Notes under the pieces: generated by a model
Seen by the model: the letters and a program-made list of their open reading frames with translations, nothing else
Told to the model about the DNA's origin: nothing
Databases searched by the model: none
Source: a virus
Reading direction: 5' to 3' (one strand)
Length of the DNA: 24,630 nt
IMG/VR virus record: IMGVR_UViG_3300028192_000012
Span: 1-24,630 of that record
Position numbers and translations under genes: made by a program
Shown: in pieces, positions 1 to 23,234 of the stretch
How positions within the stretch are numbered: position 1 is the stretch's first letter
How the letters are laid out: every line of letters starts with the position of its first letter

Positions 1-126
1 TACAGGTACTTGTTTTAAGTCAACTGTACCATCTTTACCTTTTCCTAATTCAATTGAAAAGTTACTCAATACTCTTATAAATTGAGTTATAAACTTTCTA
101 ATTTGTCCTTCGTAAAAATGTAACAT
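1..126 (-). CDS. gp15-like tail terminator / sheath-stabiliser structural protein (partial, N-terminus only)
   Basis: Forty-two codons are open from an ATG at 126-124 to the window edge. The protein starts MLHFYEGQIRKF and continues with an aromatic and basic stretch ending near a VPV. This pattern (short FY motif, RK/RR, a hydrophobic 'FIRVLSNF' segment, then VPV) resembles the N-terminus of T4 gp15 and of a conserved virion protein of marine T4-like phages that I recall starting YYDGQIRRY. gp15 caps the tail tube and sheath next to the neck. The start overlaps the stop of the upstream minus-strand gene by one base (TAATG), which implies translational coupling in one neck operon. Only the N-terminus is visible, so the identity rests on a short segment; a baseplate or other tail-associated paralogue is possible. 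Confidence 0.6.
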   Translation of the reverse strand, partial: MLHFYEGQIRKFITQFIRVLSNFSIELGKGKDGTVDLKQVPV

Positions 127-1298
127 TAATTGTCAGCCTTTGGTTTTAATGCATCTGATAATGATTGTCTTTGGTCTACTGTTAAACCATTAATAGTAGT
201 TGTACCTGACGTATTAACAAATTTAGTCTTCCAATTTGCTCTTGTATTATCATTTGTTGTAGTTAATCTTATTTTATCTTCTATTTTAACCCATCTAACT
301 CCATCATAACGGAACAATCTATTTGGTAAAAAGTCTGTTCTCAACACGTAGTCTCCCTTATTAACATTTAAAATAGGGAAATTATTTCTAGCCTCCATTG
401 GATATCCGTTTGGTGGAACACCATCACCATCTATATAGAATCCATATGTTGAACTTGCCGGTGTATCTATTACTGCATTAATAGGTTTATCAATTGATAC
501 CCTGTCTGTTGTATTATTAACATTGTCGGTTCTAATATTACCCTTTTCATCAATTGGAGTAACATAATATTGTTTATAATTAAATCCTGATTTAGGTGCG
601 TCAACTTCTGCTTGATTTACAACTGCTTCGTTAATTTCTTTTTCTCTATTAAACGTTGACATATAACTTGCTAGTGAGCCTGTGGCTGTTGCATCACCAA
701 GTATATCTCTAAATTCTTGTGAATCAACTAAAGTTTTCATTTTTAATCTTAATAAATGTGGCCACCAAGTTTGACTAAATCCTTCTGCCGCTCTGTTTAC
801 ATCTTCTATAACATAAAATCGTTTAAGTGCAATTGGTATATTTTGATCTAATGAATAATCTTCTTTCATATGTGGGAATTCAATAACATCACCCGACATT
901 GGTTTTCTACCTATTCTTTCAACTACATCATTTAAGTGAACTGTTAAAAATATAGTATCATTTTGTAAAAACATACCAAATTGTGATAGATTAAAATCAA
1001 TATCTGCAACATTATAGATACCACGAAGTGTATAGATATCTGGTGCATACTTTCTATCTCTATTTTCTAGAAACAATAAGTCTTGTATAGTTAATTCATT
1101 AACATTTTCCTGTCCAGAATAATCCGGAGATGATGGAGATGCGTTACCATCTTTTTGTAATGCTCCTTGATCGTATGGACCTAAGTATTTGTGAAAATTT
1201 AGATCCGTTCCACCAACCGTAAACATCTCTTTAATAGTACGATCAAAAAATTTGTAATCATTTCCCTTTTCAGGTTTATATATTGACAATCTTGGCAT
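126..1298 (-). CDS. gp14-like neck / virion structural protein
   Basis: 390 residues. Two parts can be seen. Residues 1-200 carry a pattern typical of the gp14 neck family and a related marine T4-like virion protein: an LFLENRDRKY segment (75-84), an FGMFLQNDTIFL segment (107-118), then a GRKPMSGDVIEFP segment (130-142) and an FYVIED strand. Residues 290-390 form a separate module with GDYVLRTD...LFRYDGVRW (315-336) and a conserved C-terminal tail RQSLSDALKPKADN, which I recall from cyanophage structural proteins. It is read divergently from gp13, with a perfect TATAAATA element 8 bases from its ATG. It overlaps the next minus-strand gene by one base. The role (head-tail connector) is inferred from family resemblance and neighbours. 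A different accessory virion protein is the main alternative; it is surely a marine-phage virion-type protein. Confidence 0.6.
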   Translation of the reverse strand: MPRLSIYKPEKGNDYKFFDRTIKEMFTVGGTDLNFHKYLGPYDQGALQKDGNASPSSPDYSGQENVNELTIQDLLFLENRDRKYAPDIYTLRGIYNVADIDFNLSQFGMFLQNDTIFLTVHLNDVVERIGRKPMSGDVIEFPHMKEDYSLDQNIPIALKRFYVIEDVNRAAEGFSQTWWPHLLRLKMKTLVDSQEFRDILGDATATGSLASYMSTFNREKEINEAVVNQAEVDAPKSGFNYKQYYVTPIDEKGNIRTDNVNNTTDRVSIDKPINAVIDTPASSTYGFYIDGDGVPPNGYPMEARNNFPILNVNKGDYVLRTDFLPNRLFRYDGVRWVKIEDKIRLTTTNDNTRANWKTKFVNTSGTTTINGLTVDQRQSLSDALKPKADN

Positions 1299-2945: not shown

Positions 2946-3258
2946 CACTTACTAATCTTTGACAATTTGCACATACAGTTTTTAAATTAATTGTATTAAC
3001 ATTATTCTTATTACCATCTACAAAAAACACATCAAGTTGTAACGGTTCTTTTGCTTTAAATCCGCACAATTCACATTTATTTTTCTTTCTATAACCTGAA
3101 CGTTGTAATGGTGTTATTCCACCTATTTTAAGTTTTTTTCTTTTCCGAATACAGGTATCACAAAGTCGTCTCCAATAAATTTTTGTACCTTTACGATAAC
3201 CATATGCTCGTGGTTTAGCCTTACACTGTATACATAGTGGTCTGGTGGCTATATTCAT
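2899..3258 (-). CDS. HNH-type zinc protein with lost catalytic histidines
   Basis: 119 residues with four CxxC pairs (9/12, 33/36, 62/65, 96/99). The second half follows the HNH nuclease pattern: CELCGF, then LDVFFVDGNKNN (75-86), then NLKTVCANCQ (91-100). In active HNH enzymes the middle motif reads like VHHIDGN and the last knuckle ends in His. Here the histidine positions are Phe78/Phe79 and Gln100, so metal-dependent cleavage is unlikely, while the zinc frame and DGN are kept. I recall similar short proteins in many T4-like marine phages, which argues for a conserved non-nuclease role such as nucleic-acid binding. A late element (CGTAAATA) lies 5 bases from the ATG. The 3' end overlaps the dNMP kinase tail to tail by 47 bases. 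Confidence 0.75.
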   Translation of the reverse strand: MNIATRPLCIQCKAKPRAYGYRKGTKIYWRRLCDTCIRKRKKLKIGGITPLQRSGYRKKNKCELCGFKAKEPLQLDVFFVDGNKNNVNTINLKTVCANCQRLVSVKHLRWKIGDLEVDV

Positions 3259-3263
3259 AACTG

Positions 3264-3271
3264 TATTTACG
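3264..3271 (-). promoter_or_regulatory. T4-type late promoter element for the HNH-type gene
   Basis: The minus strand reads CGTAAATA, ending 5 bases before the ATG at 3258; the six 3' bases match the late consensus. It is divergent from the gp18 promoter about 60 bases away. Confidence 0.6.
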
Positions 3272-3273
3272 TC

Positions 3274-3285
3274 GCCTATATAGGC
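3274..3285. repeat. 12-base perfect palindrome in the divergent promoter region
   Basis: GCCTATATAGGC is a perfect 12-base palindrome between the HNH-type and gp18 promoters. It is one of the few G+C-flanked symmetric sites in an AT-rich gap and could be a protein-binding site. It may also be chance. Confidence 0.4.
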
Positions 3286-3326
3286 ACCAATTTTACATTT
3301 ATTTTGTCGTTAAATCCGGAACAACC

Positions 3327-3334
3327 GCTAAATA
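3327..3334 (+). promoter_or_regulatory. T4-type late promoter element for gp18 (GCTAAATA)
   Basis: GCTAAATA matches the CTAAATA form of the late element that I recall from marine T4-like phages. Unlike most others in this window it is far (57 bases) from the ATG, giving a leader of roughly 50 bases. That leader carries a Shine-Dalgarno sequence, AAGGAG at 3375-3380. Confidence 0.65.
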
Positions 3335-3374
3335 GTATTAATATATTAAAAGATATAATTTTAATGTTAAATCG

Positions 3375-3380
3375 AAGGAG
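3375..3380 (+). promoter_or_regulatory. Shine-Dalgarno sequence for gp18
   Basis: AAGGAG lies 11 bases before the gp18 ATG at 3392. It stands out because most late genes here have no such site. Confidence 0.75.
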
Positions 3381-3391
3381 TTAAAAATAAT

Positions 3392-6300
3392 ATGGCAACA
3401 CTAACTAGTCCAGGAGTAGAAGTTTCAGTCATAGATGAGAGTTTTTACGTACCAGCAGACGCAGGTACTACACCATTATTTGTTGTAGCAACAGCACAAG
3501 ATAAAACACAAGGGTCAGGAACAGGCATAGCGGCAGGTACAACATCTGCAAATGCAGGTAACGCCTATTTAATTACTTCACAACGTGAATTAATGGAAAC
3601 ATTTGGAGAACCAAAATTCTATACTGATGCATCAGGAAATTCATTACATGGTTACGAATTAAACGAATACGGATTACAAGCGGCATATTCATTTTTAGGA
3701 ATTGCCAATAGAGCATACGTTTTAAGAACAAACATTGATCTATCAAATTTGTTAGGCAGTGCATCAGCACCAACAGCCAATCCAACAGATGGAACTTATT
3801 GGTTTGATCTTGCATCATCTGATATTGGACTATTTGAATGGTCATCAACTAACCAAAAATTTACAACAGTAACTCCAACATTACTAACAAGCCTTACAGA
3901 TCTAGTAGGAGATGTTTCTACTGGTGCACCAAAATCGCACGTAGGATCAACAGGCAATTATGCAATTAATACAACACACAATTCAAACAAGATTTACTAT
4001 AAAAATGATGCAGGTACTTGGGTACAAGTAGGAGCAACAGGATGGCATACTTCACACGCAACAATTACTTCAACTATAAGTAACGGTTCAGTTACATCGG
4101 GTCATTCAATTAAACTTAACACAACAACTGTTGCCACAAATGCAACTACATTTGCTAACGTGGCATCACAAATTAATGCGGCATCGATTACAGGAGTAAC
4201 AGCGGCAGTTGATTCAACAACTGGATATTTAAAAATTTATTCAGATGGAACATCTGCAGGGAATGGTTCTGTAGTTGACGGCAAAATTGTATTAGCCAAC
4301 AACTCAGGTACATTATTAACAGATATTGGCTTAACAGCAGGCACATATGCTTCGCCATTCTTATTACAATCGGCACACACTTCAAGACCTGAATGGAAAA
4401 CAGGAGACACAACACCAAGACCAAACGGATCTGTTTGGTTTAAAACAACATCTCCGAATTCGGGAACAGATTTATCAGTTAAACTTTACAGTTCATCTAC
4501 TACAAGTTTTGCAAGTGTAAGTGCTCCAATGTATGCAACAGGGCATTCAGCAGTATACAATTTAGATACTGCTACAGGTGGAGCGGCAATAACAGTTGGT
4601 TCATTATATGGACAGTACAACACTACAGAAGAAGCAGGATTAGATAGTTTACCAAACGTTGGTGACTTTACATTATTTAGATATGAAGGTGGTGCAACCA
4701 CAATATCATCTAAAACAGTATATCCAACAGGATTACAAGGTAAATTTAAAATTCAGGAAACAGTAAAAAGTTCAGCATCATTAATATCAGCAGTTGAAAT
4801 TACCGTTGCAAACCTTGATGGTTCAACAGTTGCAGACGCAGAAGATTTTTGTGCGGCAGTTAATAATAAAACAGACTTAACAAATATAACTGCATCAGTA
4901 ATTACATCAGGTGGATATAAAGGTGCCATTTCAATGACACACACATTAGGTGGTGAATTTAGAATGGTTGACTCAGAAGGAAGTACTACTCTTGCAACAG
5001 CAGGATTTAGTATAGCAACTGCTCATGCATATGGATCATATACAGCAAACTCAACAACACTTATTGATAACTTATATGATGCACCAGCAGGCGAAACACT
5101 TGATTCATCTGCCAATAATGCAATAATTGCCTCTAACTGGAAAAGATTATCTTATACGGCTTCAACTAGTTCACCAACTAACGAAGCATCAAATGGAACA
5201 TTATGGTACAATACAAATTTAGAAGCAGACATATTGGCTCACAATGGAACAACTTGGCAAGGCTACGCAAATGTTTATGGATCAACAGATCCAAATGGTC
5301 CACAATTTTCAGCAACTACTCCAACTAAACAATCAGATGGAACAGCACTTGTAGATGAAGATTTATGGATTGATACATCAGACTTAGAAAACTTTCCAAA
5401 ATTATACAGATATAATACGTCTGCAACAATTACTAATTCAACGTCAGGTCTACCAGTAACAACAACTGGAGCGGCTTGGGAATTAGTTGACAATACTGAT
5501 CAAACAACAGAAAATGGTGTTTTATTTGCTGATGCTAGATGGCATATAGCGGCAGAAAGACTAGATTCTACAACAAGCGGTGGAGCAGGTTCAGGAAGTA
5601 CAATAAAAAATTTATTAAGTGATAACTTCTTAGATCCAGATGCACCAGATCCAGTATTATATCCAAAATCAATGTTACTTTGGAATACTAGACGTTCAGG
5701 ATATAATATTAAAGAATATAATAACACTTACGTATCAACTACTGCATATCCAGGTTCAGGATCAACAGGACTAGGTAATATAAGATATAACAACGAATCG
5801 GTTGCATCTTACTATCCTGATAGATGGGTTTCTAAGTCATCTACTAACTCAGATGGTTCTGGAACTTTTGGAAGAAAAGCACAAAGAAAAGTTATTACAG
5901 CACAATTTAAATCAGATATAGGAACAAATCAAGCAATTAGAGAAGATCAAAGAGGCTTTAATGTAATGGCTTGTCCAGGTTATCCTGAAGCAATTGCAGA
6001 TCTGTTAAATCTAAATGCTGATAGAAACTATACAAGTTTTGTATGTGGTGATTCACCATTAAGATTAAAAGCAACAGCAACTGAAATATCTAATTGGTCA
6101 AACAATACAGCAGGAGCATCAGATAACGGCGAAGACGGACTTGTTTCAAGTTCAGAATATTTAGGTGTCTTTTATCCTGCAGGAAAAACTACTGATAACA
6201 GTGGAAATTCAATTATTGTTCCACCTTCACATATGATGATGAGAGTATTAGCAAATAACGACAATTTGGCATATCCATGGTTTGCACCAGCAGGTACAAG

Positions 6301-10363: not shown

Positions 10364-10972
10364 ATGAGCGACTTTAAGCACTATCTAACCGAAGCAATAA
10401 AGCAATACGACTATCGAATTAAGGTAGCAGGTGATATCGATAAAGATTTTGCATCACGAATGGAAACTTGCTTACAAAAATACGAAGTCAAAAAATTATC
10501 TGCAGGCAAAAAAACACCAATTCAAGAACATCCATTAGATTTTCCTACTCTTAAAAATCAATTAGTAAACATATTTGAACTCACTACAAATTATCCAGTT
10601 TCAGTTAGAGAATTAAAAGAATATATTGCTGATCATATGGACGTATCATCAATTATGATAGTAGTTAAAAAACCAGGAGAACCAACAGAAGAATACCAAG
10701 AACAAATGAAAGACAAATCGGAATATCAAAATTTGTTACAAACAGTTGAAATGGGTTCAGCAAGTGATGTTAAGCCTGAAGATATGTATGGTGATAAGGC
10801 TAATATGAGTTTGCTAAAAGAATTATTAAAAGATAGAGAAAAAACAGAATTTGTTAAAACAGAAAAAACACAAGAAGTACAAAGTAAGGAAGACGAAGGA
10901 AGTCCTTCACCGTTAACAAAAGCGGCACATGATGGACCTATTAAAGGCAACCCAATTCCAGCAGGAAAATAA
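10364..10972 (+). CDS. conserved phage protein, probable virion component
   Basis: 202 residues. The N-terminal 100 residues (FKHYLTEAIKQYDYRIKVAG, then KKTPIQEHPLDFP near 49-61, then YPVSVRELKEYIADHM near 76-91) form a compact alpha/beta domain I recall from several marine tailed phages, where it is called a structural or hypothetical protein. After about residue 100 the sequence is Glu/Lys/Gln-rich and probably disordered, ending with a Pro/Gly-rich tail. There are no catalytic motifs. It sits between gp16 and an acidic protein that starts 4 bases after its stop, so the two are probably made together. A link to packaging or head assembly is inferred from position only. Confidence 0.6.
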   Translation: MSDFKHYLTEAIKQYDYRIKVAGDIDKDFASRMETCLQKYEVKKLSAGKKTPIQEHPLDFPTLKNQLVNIFELTTNYPVSVRELKEYIADHMDVSSIMIVVKKPGEPTEEYQEQMKDKSEYQNLLQTVEMGSASDVKPEDMYGDKANMSLLKELLKDREKTEFVKTEKTQEVQSKEDEGSPSPLTKAAHDGPIKGNPIPAGK

Positions 10973-10976
10973 TATT

Positions 10977-12389
10977 ATGGAAATGATTGACGTTTTAAAT
11001 AAACTACACGAACTTGAAAATAAAAGTCCTGAAGTTACAAAAGCAATCACTAGTGTTGAAAAAACAAATATAACACAAGAAGCAAAAGGAAAAGATCACG
11101 ATAAAGACGGTGACGTAGATTCTAAAGACTGGAAAAAATCTAAAGATATTGCTATTAAAAAAGCAATAAAAAAAGAATCAATAAGTTACAAAGATTTTTT
11201 AGCATCTAAAGGCGTAGACATTTACAAACTTACAGGTGATGAACACGTAAAATATTCTACAGCATATAGAGACAATAGAGATGATCAAGAAGCAAGTGAT
11301 TCTCAAAGTCAAACAGATGCACCACAACAAGAAGGTAGAGTTAAAGATGCAGTACTTGGTGCTGAAGAAAGAGTTGGGGATTACATTGACGATGATGGCA
11401 ACTTAAAAATGCCTAAAAATAAAGTTTTATATGATTTAAAAGCACAAAGTAAACAAACAACAGATGCGATGGCAAGTTATGAACTTAATATTGCAATAGA
11501 TTTAGTTCAAGATAAATTTGATGATAACGGTCAAGCAAGACCTGATGAGGACGATGTTCCACATGATGTAGATACACAAATGAATATGGACGCACCAACA
11601 GAAGCAGAACCTCAAACAACTGAACCAAAAGTTGAAGAAGAAATGACACCTATGGGAACTAGAATGTTTTTTGATATGGGTGCTAAATTAGATATTAATT
11701 TTGATATGGATCAAAAAGGAATGATGGCTGGTGTTTTAAACAGATTAGATCAAGATGCGTTAATGAAATCAGTAGACGAGTACAAAGCACAGGAATTAGA
11801 TCCGGATCAAGCAGAGTCAGAACAGGTAAATACAAATACAATGAAAACAGAAGACAAAAAACCACTTAAAGAAGACAAAAAACCAGTTAAAGAAGCAATA
11901 ACAATGAGTGCTGATTCACCAGAAGAAGCAGGTATGTTAATGCAAATTATGAAACTTGCAGGTGTACAACAAGTAACACCTGATATGATTGGTGGAGAAG
12001 AACCAGCGGCAGACAACGATGCAGATCACGATCACGATGGCGATGGCGAACAAGACCATGCTCCAGAAGAATGTCCAGTATGTGGCAACGACGGTGGAGA
12101 TATGAGAAATATGATGAGTAAAGTTGACGACAGAGAAGAACCAGCAGAAGAAACTTATTCTAATACACCGGACGAAAAAACTCAAGATATTGATGATTTA
12201 GTTAATGTTCACTCTGGTGGTTTAAATAGACAAAAACAACAAGTAAGAAAAGAATATCCAGGTGATAATCCACTTGCAGTCAAAGAAGATCCAACAGAAG
12301 AAGAATTATCAAATTCATTAAGAAATCAATACGAAGGCTTTAAAAAAAGTTATTCAGAAGCAATATCTAAAACAAAAGAATCCAAGTAA
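10977..12389 (+). CDS. acidic virion-type protein with an EF-hand-like calcium loop
   Basis: 470 residues from the ATG at 10977. An in-frame ATG at 10929 lies inside the preceding gene; 10977, 4 bases after that gene's stop, is the better start. Residues 40-51 (DHDKDGDVDSKD) fit the 12-residue EF-hand/dockerin loop DxDxDGxVxxxD. The middle is Asp/Glu/Gln-rich and likely disordered apart from a TPMGTRMFFDMGAKLD segment. Near 325 there is MKLAGV, a motif repeated as TKLAGV in the 15298 protein. At 347-375 a second Asp/His-rich stretch (DHDHDGDGEQDH) is followed by a CPVC pair. The KEDKKP block is repeated twice near 298-304. I do not recognise the family. Acidity, low complexity and location near packaging genes suggest an internal head or scaffold-associated protein, which is an inference. 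Confidence 0.65.
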   Translation: MEMIDVLNKLHELENKSPEVTKAITSVEKTNITQEAKGKDHDKDGDVDSKDWKKSKDIAIKKAIKKESISYKDFLASKGVDIYKLTGDEHVKYSTAYRDNRDDQEASDSQSQTDAPQQEGRVKDAVLGAEERVGDYIDDDGNLKMPKNKVLYDLKAQSKQTTDAMASYELNIAIDLVQDKFDDNGQARPDEDDVPHDVDTQMNMDAPTEAEPQTTEPKVEEEMTPMGTRMFFDMGAKLDINFDMDQKGMMAGVLNRLDQDALMKSVDEYKAQELDPDQAESEQVNTNTMKTEDKKPLKEDKKPVKEAITMSADSPEEAGMLMQIMKLAGVQQVTPDMIGGEEPAADNDADHDHDGDGEQDHAPEECPVCGNDGGDMRNMMSKVDDREEPAEETYSNTPDEKTQDIDDLVNVHSGGLNRQKQQVRKEYPGDNPLAVKEDPTEEELSNSLRNQYEGFKKSYSEAISKTKESK

Positions 12390-12403: not shown

Positions 12404-12411
12404 TTTAAATA
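12404..12411 (+). promoter_or_regulatory. T4-type late promoter element for the sulfotransferase gene
   Basis: TTTAAATA ends 5 bases before the ATG at 12417, with no Shine-Dalgarno sequence. The cargo gene thus carries the same late signal as the structural genes around it. Confidence 0.65.
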
Positions 12412-12416
12412 AGCAT

Positions 12417-13184
12417 ATGAGTAATAAAAGACTTATGGCTGTTAGATCATTTGCATTAGTTAATGACTCTATGTGGATCGGCATTCCAAAAACTGCCACT
12501 ACTAGTCTACAACAAATCTTCCACAGATTTCCAAAAACATATTATGAAGATAATTCAGAATTTTTAAAAATTAGAAAGTCACCAGACTTATCACCTAAAA
12601 AAATCTGGTGCATATGGAGAGACCCATGGCAACGTTGGTTATCTGCCGTCATGCAAGACTACGAATTAAAATTTGATCTAGGAAGAGTGACGCCATCTGG
12701 AAACAAGAATCATCGGCAAATGGATTATCAAGAAATAGTTAGTCTGGCAAAGGACCTACAATTAAAATGGAAATTTAATAGTGCAAATTTAAGAAATAAA
12801 ATGTTTCAGCATAGCAGTCTTTATGTTGCCAGGTATATTACCTTATTATGGAAGTTAGCAAATGAACGTCATAATTGTCCTATATTAGAAATTTATCCTA
12901 TATCAAAAATTAATAATGCAATAAAAACTCATTTCAATATAAATTTTAACTCTCCTAATCTAAATAAATCTCATCAAATAAATCTTGATCGTTTAGATAT
13001 GATTTTACAAGAAAAGAAATTTTATAACAAATGGAAAGAACAATTTGAAGAGGATATAAATCTCAATGAAATTATCTCACAAAATATAAAAAGATTTAAT
13101 AAGACAGAATGGAATGAAAAAGTTTTGTTTAAATATGGATTACATCTAGACCGTTATTTTAAAAAAATATCATCGGATTTTTAA
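12417..13184 (+). CDS. PAPS-dependent sulfotransferase-like protein
   Basis: 255 residues. Would move sulfate from PAPS to a sugar, lipid or protein hydroxyl in the cytoplasm. Two cofactor motifs are clear: IPKTATTSLQ (23-32), the 5'-phosphosulfate loop with Lys25 and the Thr/Ser run, and WRDPWQRWLSAVMQDY (67-82), the 3'-phosphate motif RDPxxRxxS with Arg68, Arg73 and Ser76. The Gly of the usual PKTGTTSL is Ala27 here. A strand WIGIPKT precedes the loop as in the family. The rest is helical and Asn/Lys/Ile-rich and not diagnostic. It is a cargo gene standing between virion genes and gp17, with its own late element and an inverted repeat after it, as if inserted as a unit. The substrate is unknown; host surface polysaccharide or a virion glycan are candidates. 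Confidence 0.75.
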   Translation: MSNKRLMAVRSFALVNDSMWIGIPKTATTSLQQIFHRFPKTYYEDNSEFLKIRKSPDLSPKKIWCIWRDPWQRWLSAVMQDYELKFDLGRVTPSGNKNHRQMDYQEIVSLAKDLQLKWKFNSANLRNKMFQHSSLYVARYITLLWKLANERHNCPILEIYPISKINNAIKTHFNINFNSPNLNKSHQINLDRLDMILQEKKFYNKWKEQFEEDINLNEIISQNIKRFNKTEWNEKVLFKYGLHLDRYFKKISSDF

Positions 13185-13190
13185 AACAAC

Positions 13191-13231
13191 AGGCTAGATA
13201 TAGAAGATTAAAACTAACCACAAACTAGCCT
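13191..13231. repeat. inverted repeat between the sulfotransferase gene and gp17
   Basis: AGGCTAG (13191-13197) and CTAGCCT (13225-13231) form a perfect 7-base inverted repeat with a 27-base AT-rich spacer. The right arm abuts the gp17 late promoter (13230-13237). There is no T run, so it is a poor terminator; the long spacer also weakens a hairpin. Confidence 0.45.
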
Positions 13232-13237
13232 TAAATA
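13230..13237 (+). promoter_or_regulatory. T4-type late promoter element for gp17 (CTTAAATA)
   Basis: CTTAAATA ends 7 bases before the ATG at 13245. The bases just before the ATG (ACACT) nearly repeat those at 2136 and 7572 (GCACT). Confidence 0.65.
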
Positions 13238-13244
13238 CAACACT

Positions 13245-14840
13245 ATGGCATATGTATCATTAGATTCAGAGCAAATTAAACGTGCTCACAAGAAGCACAA
13301 ATATACAAAAGATCAAGTATTAAAACTTGAAAAGTGTATGCATCCAAAAACCGGACCTTTGTATTTTATGGAAACATTCATGAGAATACAACATCCAACT
13401 AAAGGTGAGATGGCATTTCATCCTTATGATTTCCAAAAAAGATTAATTGAATCTTACAATTCGCACAGATTTAGTATATCAATGCTACCACGACAAACAG
13501 GTAAAACAACCTGTGCGGCAGGATACATTATTTGGTATGCTATGTTTCATCCAGATTCATCTATATTAATTGCGGCACACAAATACGCAGGTGCATCTGA
13601 CATTATGTCACGTGTAAGATTTGCATATGAGATGTTACCTGAATGGATTAAAGCAGGAGTAACACAATACAATAGAAATTCTATAGAATTTGATAATGGT
13701 TCAAAAATAATGGCAACTACTACAACTGAAAATACTGGACGGGGTTTATCCTTAACAATGATTTATTGTGATGAGTTTGCTTTCGTGCAACCACCCGATA
13801 AAGCCAAAGAGTTTTGGACTTCACTATCTCCAACACTATCAACAGGAGGTAAATGTATGATTACATCAACTCCAAATAGTGATGAAGATCAATTTGCATT
13901 AATTTGGAAAGAAGCAAACAAAAGATTTGACGACTATGGCAACGATAAAATAGTAGGAACAAATGGTTTCTATGCCATGAAGGCACACTGGTCAGAACAC
14001 CCTGACAGAGATGAAGAATGGGCAGAAACTGAAAAAGCAAGAATCGGTGACGAAAGATTTAGACGGGAACACGAATGTGAATTTATAATCTTTGACGAAA
14101 CATTAATTAACTCTATAACATTAGTAGAATTAGAAAGTACTTTGCCAACTTTAACTACAGGACAAGTTAGATGGTGGAAAACGCCACAGCCTGGAATGAC
14201 TTATATGGTATCATTAGATCCGGCGATGGGAACTGGTGGTGACTATGCCGCTATCCAAGTATTTGAACTGCCAACATTTGAACAAATTGGTGAATGGCGT
14301 CATAACGAAACACCAATGAATCAACAAGTTAGAATATTACAAGGTATTACAAAACATATACACGAAGCAATCATGGAAAAAGATAGTACTAACAATCCTC
14401 AAATATTTTATTCAATGGAAAATAATACAATAGGTGAAGCGGCATTAATGCGTGTAATGGATATTGGTGAAGAAAATATTCATGGTATGTTCTTATCAGA
14501 ACCTATTAGAAAAGGACATAGAAGAAAATTTAGAAGAGGGTTCAATACTACTGCTAAATTTAAAATAGATGCTTGTACTAAATTTAAAGAACTTATAGAA
14601 GGTGGAAAAATGGTAGTAAACAGTAATCTTCTTATAACTGAATTAAAAGATTTTGTTGCAACAGGAATGAGTTACAAAGCCAAGCCTGGACAAAATGACG
14701 ATTTAGTTAGTGCTTGTTTACTAATGACACGTATGATGAAAGTATTAGCAGATTTTGATCCTAAAATATTTGAAAAATGGACGAATAGAGACAGGGAATA
14801 CACTATACCAATGCCTATCTTTGCTAACTTGGGTGTATAA
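13245..14840 (+). CDS. gp17: gp17 terminase large subunit
   Basis: 531 residues against 610 in T4. The ATP-driven motor that pumps DNA into the prohead and cuts it. ATPase domain: the adenine-binding Gln region FHPYDFQKRL (58-67), a Walker A LPRQTGKTT (81-89, Lys87), a Walker B MIYCDEF (172-178, Asp176, Glu177) and a coupling motif TSTP (207-210). Nuclease domain: SLDPAMGTGGDYAA (323-336, Asp325), SMENN (390-394, Glu392) and QNDDLVSA (483-490, Asp485/486), matching the catalytic acid triad of T4 gp17. All key residues are present, so it should be active. It is preceded by a late promoter and followed one base after its stop by the next gene. Confidence 0.95.
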   Translation: MAYVSLDSEQIKRAHKKHKYTKDQVLKLEKCMHPKTGPLYFMETFMRIQHPTKGEMAFHPYDFQKRLIESYNSHRFSISMLPRQTGKTTCAAGYIIWYAMFHPDSSILIAAHKYAGASDIMSRVRFAYEMLPEWIKAGVTQYNRNSIEFDNGSKIMATTTTENTGRGLSLTMIYCDEFAFVQPPDKAKEFWTSLSPTLSTGGKCMITSTPNSDEDQFALIWKEANKRFDDYGNDKIVGTNGFYAMKAHWSEHPDRDEEWAETEKARIGDERFRREHECEFIIFDETLINSITLVELESTLPTLTTGQVRWWKTPQPGMTYMVSLDPAMGTGGDYAAIQVFELPTFEQIGEWRHNETPMNQQVRILQGITKHIHEAIMEKDSTNNPQIFYSMENNTIGEAALMRVMDIGEENIHGMFLSEPIRKGHRRKFRRGFNTTAKFKIDACTKFKELIEGGKMVVNSNLLITELKDFVATGMSYKAKPGQNDDLVSACLLMTRMMKVLADFDPKIFEKWTNRDREYTIPMPIFANLGV

Positions 14841-21054: not shown

Positions 21055-21661
21055 AATAATCCTTACAGACGTAGACGGTGTATTACTAGAATGGGAAAAC
21101 CATTTTACTAAATGGATGTTACAGCGAACACTCTTTGATGAAAAAGGAAGTAGAGTTTACCCATATAGATTGTTAGAAGATAAAGAAAACACTTACGAAA
21201 TGGCAGAACGTTTTGGTGTTACTAAACTAGAAATTAGAAAAGAAATTAGAGAGTTTAACAAAAGTGCTTGGATGGGAACACAATCCCCAATGCCAGATTC
21301 ACAAACTTGGATTAAACTACTACACGCAGAAGGTTGGACTTTTATACCAATTACATCACAAACTTCAGATATTCCTGCACAAGAATTACGTAAAAAACGA
21401 CTAGAAGAATTATTTGGTGAAAATATTTTCTACAACTTTCATATACTTGAAACAGGATCGGATAAAGATTCGGCATTTGCAGAATTTCACAACACAGGAT
21501 TATGGTGGGTTGAAGACAAATGGACAAATGCGTTAGCAGGTTTAAAATTTGGATTAAATGTATTATTATACGATCGTCCTTACAACAGAGATTGCAATCA
21601 CCCCGAAATTACCAGAGTAAATAATTGGCAAGAGGTTCATAAGATTGTAAGCAAAAAATGA
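21038..21661 (+). CDS. HAD-superfamily phosphatase-like protein
   Basis: 207 residues. HAD motifs in order: ILTDVDGVL (8-16, nucleophile Asp11 and acid/base Asp13), IPITSQTSD (104-111, motif II Ser/Thr), a Lys in GSDKDSAF (Lys143, motif III), and WWVEDKWTNALAG (156-168, Glu159/Asp160, motif IV). All four active-site elements are present, so it is likely an active phosphohydrolase. The compact cap and phage setting suggest a nucleotidase, but a sugar phosphatase would fit the glycosyltransferase next door equally well. It overlaps uvsY by 17 bases and the next gene by 4 (ATGA), so it is translationally coupled to both. Confidence 0.75.
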   Translation: MPTSNKIILTDVDGVLLEWENHFTKWMLQRTLFDEKGSRVYPYRLLEDKENTYEMAERFGVTKLEIRKEIREFNKSAWMGTQSPMPDSQTWIKLLHAEGWTFIPITSQTSDIPAQELRKKRLEELFGENIFYNFHILETGSDKDSAFAEFHNTGLWWVEDKWTNALAGLKFGLNVLLYDRPYNRDCNHPEITRVNNWQEVHKIVSKK

Positions 21662-22473
21662 CATTTAAAGTTTTTATAGGCTGGGATAGTACAGAAGATA
21701 TTGCATATCAGGTTGCTCGACATTCAATTTTAAAAAGAACAAAATCTGATGTCGATGTTAAACCGATTAAGCAACATGAGTTACGATCAGCAGGAATTTA
21801 TGCTCGTCCTCGCGATAAAAAAGCATCAACAGAATTTAGTCTTACACGTTTCGCAGTTCCAACTTTATGTGATTATAAGGGTTGGGCAATTTTTTCAGAT
21901 TGTGATTTTTTATGGTTATGTGATATTGAGGAAGTTTTTAATATGGCTGACGACAAGTATGCTGTAATGTGTGTTCATCATGATTATAAACCAAAAGAAG
22001 AAGTTAAGATGGACGGTAAACAACAATTTATATATCCACGAAAAAACTGGAGTTCAATGGTTTTATGGAATTGTGAACACCCACAAAATAAATTACTTAC
22101 AAAAGATGCAGTAAATCATCAAACACCGGGTTGGCTACATCGGTTTGAATGGCTTAAAGATTCAGAAATTGGAGAAATACCTTATCAATACAATTACTTA
22201 GAAGGATGGTATAATACAAATGATGCAAAAGTTGTTCATTTTACACGTGGAGGACCATGGCATGAAGGATATGAAACTCCCGATGACATGAATATTACAT
22301 CATGGAACGATGTTGAGTATGGAAAAGAATGGCGAGAAGAAGAAAAAGACTTTTTAAAAACTCAATTATCAAGTTGGAATTACAAATCTATTCGTCTTAG
22401 ACTACCAGTATCAAAGGGGGGAGAGCATAAAGAGTATGATGATAATCACAAATATTTTTGGAAGAATAGATGA
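21658..22473 (+). CDS. glycosyltransferase, GT8-like
   Basis: 271 residues. An N-terminal VFIGWDSTED (5-14) nucleotide-sugar strand, TEFSLTRFAVPTL (58-70) and FSDCDFLW (79-86) with a DxD metal motif (Asp81, Asp83) fit glycosyltransferases of the GT8-like fold. Later VVHFTRGGPWHEGY (about 217-230) resembles the HxxGxxKPW motif of the same group, with the second conserved metal His. Probably adds a hexose to a lipopolysaccharide, DNA or protein acceptor; the acceptor cannot be read from sequence. ATGA overlaps with both neighbours tie it to the HAD-like and oxygenase genes. Confidence 0.75.
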   Translation: MTFKVFIGWDSTEDIAYQVARHSILKRTKSDVDVKPIKQHELRSAGIYARPRDKKASTEFSLTRFAVPTLCDYKGWAIFSDCDFLWLCDIEEVFNMADDKYAVMCVHHDYKPKEEVKMDGKQQFIYPRKNWSSMVLWNCEHPQNKLLTKDAVNHQTPGWLHRFEWLKDSEIGEIPYQYNYLEGWYNTNDAKVVHFTRGGPWHEGYETPDDMNITSWNDVEYGKEWREEEKDFLKTQLSSWNYKSIRLRLPVSKGGEHKEYDDNHKYFWKNR

Positions 22474-23234
22474 GTTATTCTGTTTTACAAAATTATAAAC
22501 AAAATGAACATTTTTTTGAACAACCTTATCCACATATAATAATTCCTAAATGTTTACCACACGAAACTTACGAACTTTTATACGAAAGTTTTCCTGTAGA
22601 AATTGTTAAAAAAAATTTTCAACTAGTTGAAGAACATACATATAGAGGATTAGCAAATGACTTTATTAGATCTAATAGAGTAAATGTACATAATCGATGG
22701 AAAGATTTTTTCGAATTTCACACATCTCGTGAATTTTATAACCAAGTTTTAAATATTTTTGAACCATATATTAAAAATTATAGTTGGGTTAAAGAACAAC
22801 CTGTAAAAGTTCGACATAGTCCTGGTGAAACTAAAATAGTCACCGACACACAATTTGTAATACACAAACCAACAAAAATTACAACAAGAACAGACCATAT
22901 TGATAACCCTGCTGAATTATATGCAGGATTACTTTATTTTAGACAACGAGGAGATATTAGCACAGGTGGAGATTTTGTAATATACGAAACAAAAGAAGTT
23001 AACGAAGTGTATGCAAATACTGGACGAGAAGTTCCTAAAGATGTTGAGAAAAAAGAAAGTAAAGTTATAAAATATAAAGATAATGCATTTATTATGTTCT
23101 TAAACTCAAATAAAGCAGTACATGGTGTGACACCACGAGTAAATGCTATGCATGACAGGTTGAGCATTAATATAATTGCTGAAGTAGACAAAAAGGTGAA
23201 TCCACTATTTAAATTAAGCGATATCGCTCAATAA
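22470..23234 (+). CDS. 2-oxoglutarate/Fe(II)-dependent oxygenase-like protein
   Basis: 254 residues. N-terminal YPHIIIPKCLPHETYELLYESFP is typical of phage 2OG-Fe(II) enzymes. The iron site is TDHIDNPAEL with His143 and Asp145, the distal His is AVHGVTPR (His218), and Arg230 in DRLSINII is a good 2-oxoglutarate anchor. A jelly-roll pattern of strands (GLLYFRQ, GGDFVIYE, NAFIMFLNS) lies between. All iron ligands are present. Substrate unknown; hydroxylation of a lipid-linked or sugar substrate would fit its neighbours, and DNA/protein modification is the alternative. Start overlaps the glycosyltransferase stop (ATGA). The 3' end overlaps the convergent gene by 21 bases. Confidence 0.75.
   Translation: MSYSVLQNYKQNEHFFEQPYPHIIIPKCLPHETYELLYESFPVEIVKKNFQLVEEHTYRGLANDFIRSNRVNVHNRWKDFFEFHTSREFYNQVLNIFEPYIKNYSWVKEQPVKVRHSPGETKIVTDTQFVIHKPTKITTRTDHIDNPAELYAGLLYFRQRGDISTGGDFVIYETKEVNEVYANTGREVPKDVEKKESKVIKYKDNAFIMFLNSNKAVHGVTPRVNAMHDRLSINIIAEVDKKVNPLFKLSDIAQ

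Follow-up and report, generated by a model that had tools for sequence, protein, structure and literature searches.

The locus and its promoter boxes

The window analysed here (the whole stretch of DNA, 24,630 bases) is positions 1-24,630 of IMG/VR record IMGVR_UViG_3300028192_000012, from an uncultured T4-like phage, and the gene treated below looks like one for a highly divergent sulfate-transferring enzyme. Its open reading frame comes after a series of tail and head genes, among them one of a head-closure family and one of a virion structural family, and is followed by the gene for the terminase large subunit. The placement between virion proteins and terminase gp17 given in a first-pass annotation therefore holds. 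The features are as follows.

10929-12389, plus strand: gene for a 486-aa protein, the upstream flank of the slot; it has relatives in related loci and is the positional counterpart of gp281 of Pseudomonas phage PA5oct
12405-12411, plus strand: TTAAATA box resembling a late promoter, with 5 nt between it and the ATG of the sulfotransferase-like gene
12417-13184, plus strand: sulfotransferase-like gene, an open reading frame opening at ATG, 255 aa; same-place relatives in contigs L005, L010 and L085, and a profile link to Sulfotransfer_2 proteins
12486-12509, plus strand: PKTATTSL at residues 24-31, the candidate 5'-phosphosulfate loop; Lys25 never varies in the alignment of 22 proteins
12618-12644, plus strand: RDPWQRWLS (residues 68-76), candidate 3'-phosphate site; Arg68, Pro70, Arg73 and Ser76 invariant in 22 aligned proteins
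13191-13197 and 13225-13231, no strand: the two 7-nt arms, AGGCTAG and CTAGCCT, of a probably incidental inverted repeat within the spacer
13231-13237, plus strand: TTAAATA box that precedes the terminase gene, repeating the 12405 box in direct orientation and closing the cassette
13245-14840, plus strand: terminase large subunit (gp17), the downstream flank of the slot; PHROG E 1.3e-114, 53% identical to the PA5oct terminase

Similarity between the 486-aa protein and gp281, a structural protein detected by mass spectrometry (MS), was not detected (E 0.05). The 202-aa structural protein encoded at 10364-10972 is a homologue of the MS-detected PA5oct gp282 (E 3e-17). One further virion structural protein (126-1298, minus strand; PHROG 11591, E 3.5e-78) is encoded in reverse orientation relative to the remaining structural genes. 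The GC content is 0.286 for the sulfotransferase-like gene, 0.290 for the gene at 22470-23234 and 0.330 for the whole window.

Promoter boxes. The gene had been credited with a late-type promoter of its own, and the TTAAATA at 12405-12411 upholds this, the box being enriched before gene starts. Counted across the entire window, the motif shows no excess (14 matches versus 18.8 expected); TAAATA lies within 30 nt upstream of 8 of the 22 plus-strand starts versus 11 of 529 other ATGs, beginning 11-16 nt 5' of those eight starts, several of which belong to structural genes. Among related phages TAAATA was found within 25 nt of 81 of 82 terL starts, and TTTAAATAAGCATATG is identical across three distinct copies of the gene locus. 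The arrangement is that of T4-type late promoters, an TATAAATA-like box at a fixed distance before late genes, and one report describes a cyanophage late promoter, NATAAATA (PMC2984593). Because the box is placed before gene starts, several of them structural, and because of the cyanophage NATAAATA promoter, it is fair to infer that the sulfotransferase-like gene would be expressed late. Sigma-70 promoter-like sites (42 versus 41.6) and terminator-like sites (2 versus 3.4) were no commoner than in shuffled sequences and were set aside.

Inverted repeat. The repeat after the gene had been read as a cassette end, a claim that proved weak: an equal repeat occurs in 189 of 2000 random 60-nt stretches, and the repeat was not found in two other lineages (L005 and L010), where the stop codon runs into the terminase promoter. 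The repeat region folds modestly better than its shuffles (z -2.2). The repeat is probably incidental.

Candidate PAPS site and family relationships

Copies and selection. Four viral contigs carry the gene at an identical position; one is the same phage, and the other three (L005, L010 and L085) represent two further lineages, so that homologues at this position, which the first-pass annotation had proposed to look for, do exist. The L005, L010 and L085 copies are 49-52% identical to the window protein, those of L005 and L085 being nearly identical to each other. Between L005 and L010, dN is 0.103 and dS 0.779 (dN/dS about 0.13), a pattern of purifying selection by which the gene is kept functional; between the window and L005, dN is 0.44 and dS, near saturation, 1.7. 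A search of the 50 records behind the loci returned just the four known copies, no relative was confirmed when bacterial genomes were scanned with the protein's profile, and a scan of plasmids with the L010 protein gave none.

Motifs. Lys, Arg and Ser of these motifs hold PAPS in sulfotransferases. We take PKTATTSL as the candidate 5'-phosphosulfate loop and RDPWQRWLS as the candidate 3'-phosphate site. Both motifs, earlier described as intact, are present in the reading frame, and the PAPS-binding Lys and Arg, whose loss in homologues would have spoken against a sulfotransferase, are retained. In an alignment of 22 proteins, Lys25, Arg68, Pro70, Arg73, Ser76 and Asp213 are invariant (22/22). 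Two features of Sulfotransfer_2 are thus present: a 5'-phosphosulfate loop with its invariant Lys, and the Arg and Ser of the 3'-phosphate site in the form RxPxxRxxS. The family-2 motif QH, found between the two sites in all 11 members of a family-2 subset (L104, L110a, L111-L116, L118-L120), is absent there from all four copies of the sulfotransferase-like protein, as is the family-2 motif DNHxRP; because both are missing, no catalytic base can be named. In one small phage protein, L138b, the QH sits close to the N-terminus.

Database searches. At E up to 10 the window protein matched nothing in Pfam, falling short of the gathering cut-off of Sulfotransfer_2 (PF03567), and the L005 and L010 proteins had none at E up to 1. 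NCBIfam gave no match to the window protein, nor did a PDB sequence search with the protein and its profile. PHROG 3347 (Galactose-3-O-sulfotransferase) was matched weakly and by one of the four copies, over 31 residues (18-48; E 0.013), and no full-length profile match to it was found. Two other candidates were rejected: a PHROG 'kinase' match (residues 187-243, E 8e-4) lies in the C-terminal part, outside both motifs, and appears for one of the four copies; an Erwinia phage match (E 0.4) is to a sequence lacking the sulfotransferase motifs.

Profile comparisons. A profile of the four copies was compared with 13 Sulfotransfer_2-type proteins, namely L104, L105 and L110 (cyanophage ACG-2014f and a related viral contig) and L111-L120 (Alphaproteobacteria plasmids). 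The score was 35.7 (probability 53, P 1.3e-4). The alignment kept the two motifs in register, and the similarity was limited to about 57 residues around them. None of 200 column shuffles scored as high (mean 13.3, maximum 29.1), and the reversed profile scored 8.3. Against the same 13 proteins the window protein alone scored 37.0, and the 19 other window proteins tested reached at most 19.6.

A scan of viral contigs for RDPWxRWxSA returned 19 stretches, including small sulfotransferase-like proteins, and the four-copy profile recovers those of L129, L130, L134, L137, L138 and L139 at E values from 9e-7 to 4e-3. Against six small phage proteins the profile scored 62.4, a value inflated because part of the set had been fetched with the window protein's own RDPWxRW motif. 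A fairer test used L138b and L142, which had not been fetched with that motif, and gave a score of 27.9 (probability 14), whereas 200 shuffles reached 19.8 at most. L138b passes the Pfam Sulfotransfer_2 cut-off (29.7 versus 22) and L142 is just under it (21.4); L142 was the sole new relative among 14 stretches returned by a pattern scan.

Two of the contigs that carry these small genes have further features. L138 encodes two different small sulfotransferase-like proteins (1816-2364 and 3013-3666), a few hundred bases apart on one viral contig. On the minus strand of L129 (1779-5198), sulfotransferase-like, peroxiredoxin-like and radical-SAM-like genes lie near a clamp-loader-like gene, labels that were assigned by eye.

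Structure models. AlphaFold gave a pLDDT of 39 from four sequences and 44 from 14. The 14-sequence model, of low confidence and too poor for use, shows the expected strand-loop-helix at both motifs, and a Foldseek search with it gave no match at E <= 0.001.

The cargo slot beside the terminase gene

Related loci were taken from the top 80 among at least 598 relatives of the terminase, so slot frequencies describe close kin only. Among 83 sequences, four without a usable flank (L018, L031, L046 and L075) were dropped; leaving out three copies of the window's own phage and adding L085 gives the 77 loci counted here, all with both flanks. The slot is empty (37-44 nt) in 51 of the 77, holds a spacer of 187-227 nt with no forward open reading frame of 50 aa in three, and is filled in 23 by a gene of one of five kinds: a sulfotransferase-like gene (3/77), a cold-shock protein (5/77), a radical-SAM/SPASM protein (3/77), an unknown 216-aa protein (1/77), or a Usg-like and/or 123-133-aa protein (11/77). 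Families were assigned with Pfam on one or two examples of each kind and the rest grouped by reading the sequences. Clustering at 97% identity leaves 65 locus clusters, 44 of them with an empty slot.

On a tree of 70 terminase proteins the sulfotransferase-like gene requires two changes, the cold-shock gene four and the radical-SAM gene two. The window terminase groups with those of two cold-shock phages (support 100/97), apart from L005, L010 and L085.

L053 carries an insertion scar: at 4953-5010, 5' of its radical-SAM/SPASM gene, there is a duplicate of the terminase promoter together with the opening 12 codons of the terminase gene, ending in a stop. Both promoter copies in L053 share a variant that its relative L050 lacks. 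In L073 the left junction falls at the TTAAATA box. The scar and this junction fit a putative insertion or exchange of cargo at the late-promoter boxes. Against a single rule, the cold-shock genes lack a TTAAATA box of their own and directly follow the upstream stop codon. The earlier view of the gene as inserted cargo is strengthened by the 51 empty loci, the 23 filled with one of five gene kinds and the L053 scar.

Usg-like proteins (PF06233, E 3e-20 for L059) are found as terminase-side cargo in L059 (5732-5992) and its relatives L060, L066-L069 and L076. A scan of bacterial genomes with the Usg proteins found no close relative.

Substrate, rival readings and known systems

Sugar genes. Both ACG-2014f relatives lie within a glycosyltransferase cluster, near a tail-fibre gene. 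Among the plasmid relatives, as judged from the short stretch seen of each, 6 of 10 adjoin a polysaccharide-type gene (L112, L115, L116, L118, L119 and L120) and L111, L113, L114 and L117 have no sugar-polymer neighbour. At 21658-22473 the window itself encodes a protein that has a DxD motif and is weakly Glyco_transf_8-like (E 0.021, under the cut-off). Because relatives stand near sugar genes and the window has this glycosyltransferase-like protein, a glycan, on the particle or the host envelope, would be the likeliest substrate class. The gene at 22470-23234, which overlaps that at 21658-22473, encodes a weakly 2OG-Fe(II) oxygenase-like protein (E 5e-5, just below the Pfam cut-off).

We favour, at a probability of roughly 0.6, the reading that the gene encodes a divergent, PAPS-dependent, late carbohydrate sulfotransferase that has been swapped in as a promoter-bounded cassette. 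Transcription late in infection would start from the gene's own TTAAATA promoter, and the enzyme would transfer sulfate from PAPS to a carbohydrate, either in the cell envelope or on the phage particle. The gene would have been inserted into a cargo slot with a structural gene on one side and the terminase gene on the other. The late-promoter boxes that bound this slot, as putative sites of recombination, might let single genes be gained, lost or exchanged with terminase expression unharmed. The position of the slot suggests a late, swappable chemical modification.

Different substrates could be imagined. An enzyme whose acceptor is a small host molecule, a protein or a peptide, and which serves host metabolism or defence evasion during infection, strikes us as unlikely. 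In its favour, neither gene flanking the sulfotransferase-like gene is a sugar gene, the cold-shock, radical-SAM and Usg cargoes show no sugar link, and sulfotransferases have many substrates, as one paper on OM43 phages puts it (PMC10580990); against it, sugar clusters surround the nearest relatives whose neighbours are informative, and the window has its own weakly Glyco_transf_8-like protein. It is somewhat harder to credit that this is a P-loop or other nucleotide-binding protein, structural or regulatory for example, which bears PAPS-site motifs without sulfotransferase activity, whether that was lost or never present. Such a protein would accord with the missing motifs of the family-2 catalytic region, the low-confidence AlphaFold models (pLDDT 39 and 44) and the weak 'kinase' match at residues 187-243; every candidate PAPS-site residue, however, is invariant, the purifying selection is strong, and the 'kinase' match is C-terminal, off the motifs and limited to one copy in four.

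The slot might also be no exchange site at all, the loci being those of divergent phages that differ in gene content and the sulfotransferase-like gene an old, vertically inherited one. Two changes on the terminase tree would allow one gain followed by losses or replacements, and the GC content of the gene is near that of the window gene at 22470-23234. We nevertheless find vertical descent improbable, given that the window terminase sits with those of cold-shock phages and apart from those of the other sulfotransferase phages, that cold-shock and radical-SAM cargoes need four and two changes of their own, and that the terminase start persists in L053 as a truncated copy 5' of the cargo.

Beyond the late carbohydrate sulfotransferase that we prefer, a bolder version is doubtful: a new sulfotransferase branch performing late glycan sulfation on particles or on the dying host's receptor, from a plug-in slot bounded by late promoters. 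Were it true, sulfation might keep progeny from being trapped or shut rivals out, and related phages would keep other single-gene modifiers in that slot. A late-type, terminase-adjacent copy restricts the time at which the enzyme could act, and the slot offers natural one-gene swaps among otherwise similar phages, a ready-made comparison.

Known systems. Phage sulfotransferases had been called rare, a claim that does not hold up: they are known in marine phages, from PHROG 3347 of ACG-2014f and from OM43 phages, two of whose genomes carry a Sulfotransfer_3 gene of a function that the paper calls unclear (PMC10580990). A sulfotransferase has been reported as an auxiliary gene before (PMC8290583, in one account), and individual further phage cases appear in PMC11309003 and PMC13079714. 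The window protein resembles Sulfotransfer_2 (PF03567) of bacteria and phages in its phosphosulfate-loop Lys, in the 3'-phosphate-site Arg and Ser, in the order of the motifs and in a conserved Tyr/Asp near the C-terminal helix, but differs in having no Pfam match, no QH and no DNHxRP. Like the PHROG 3347 protein of ACG-2014f, it is phage-borne and shares a weak match at residues 18-48; unlike it, that protein has 205 aa and is encoded in a glycosyltransferase cluster near a tail fibre rather than next to the terminase. The best profile match found is to the small phage proteins of L129, L130, L138 (two), L139 and L142 (62 for six, 28 for two), although these are only about 15-19% identical to the window protein, which has additional C-terminal residues, and the gene contexts in the two contigs looked at (L138 and L129) differ from the window slot.

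PA5oct (Arenbergviridae) has its genes in the same order as the window between tail sheath and UvsX, and its terminase is 53% identical, but its slot is empty (28 nt) and its protein 5' of the slot has no detectable similarity to that of the window. In PA5oct a homing endonuclease gene (L099:1547-3163) also separates tail sheath from tail tube; the window has none there. A hypervariable gp17-gp18 region is named in a study of cyanophages (PMC3037559) and is likewise a case of added genes beside the terminase in T4-like phages. Unlike that region, the window slot lies 5' of the terminase gene and mostly holds one gene, here the sulfotransferase-like gene flanked by two TTAAATA boxes.
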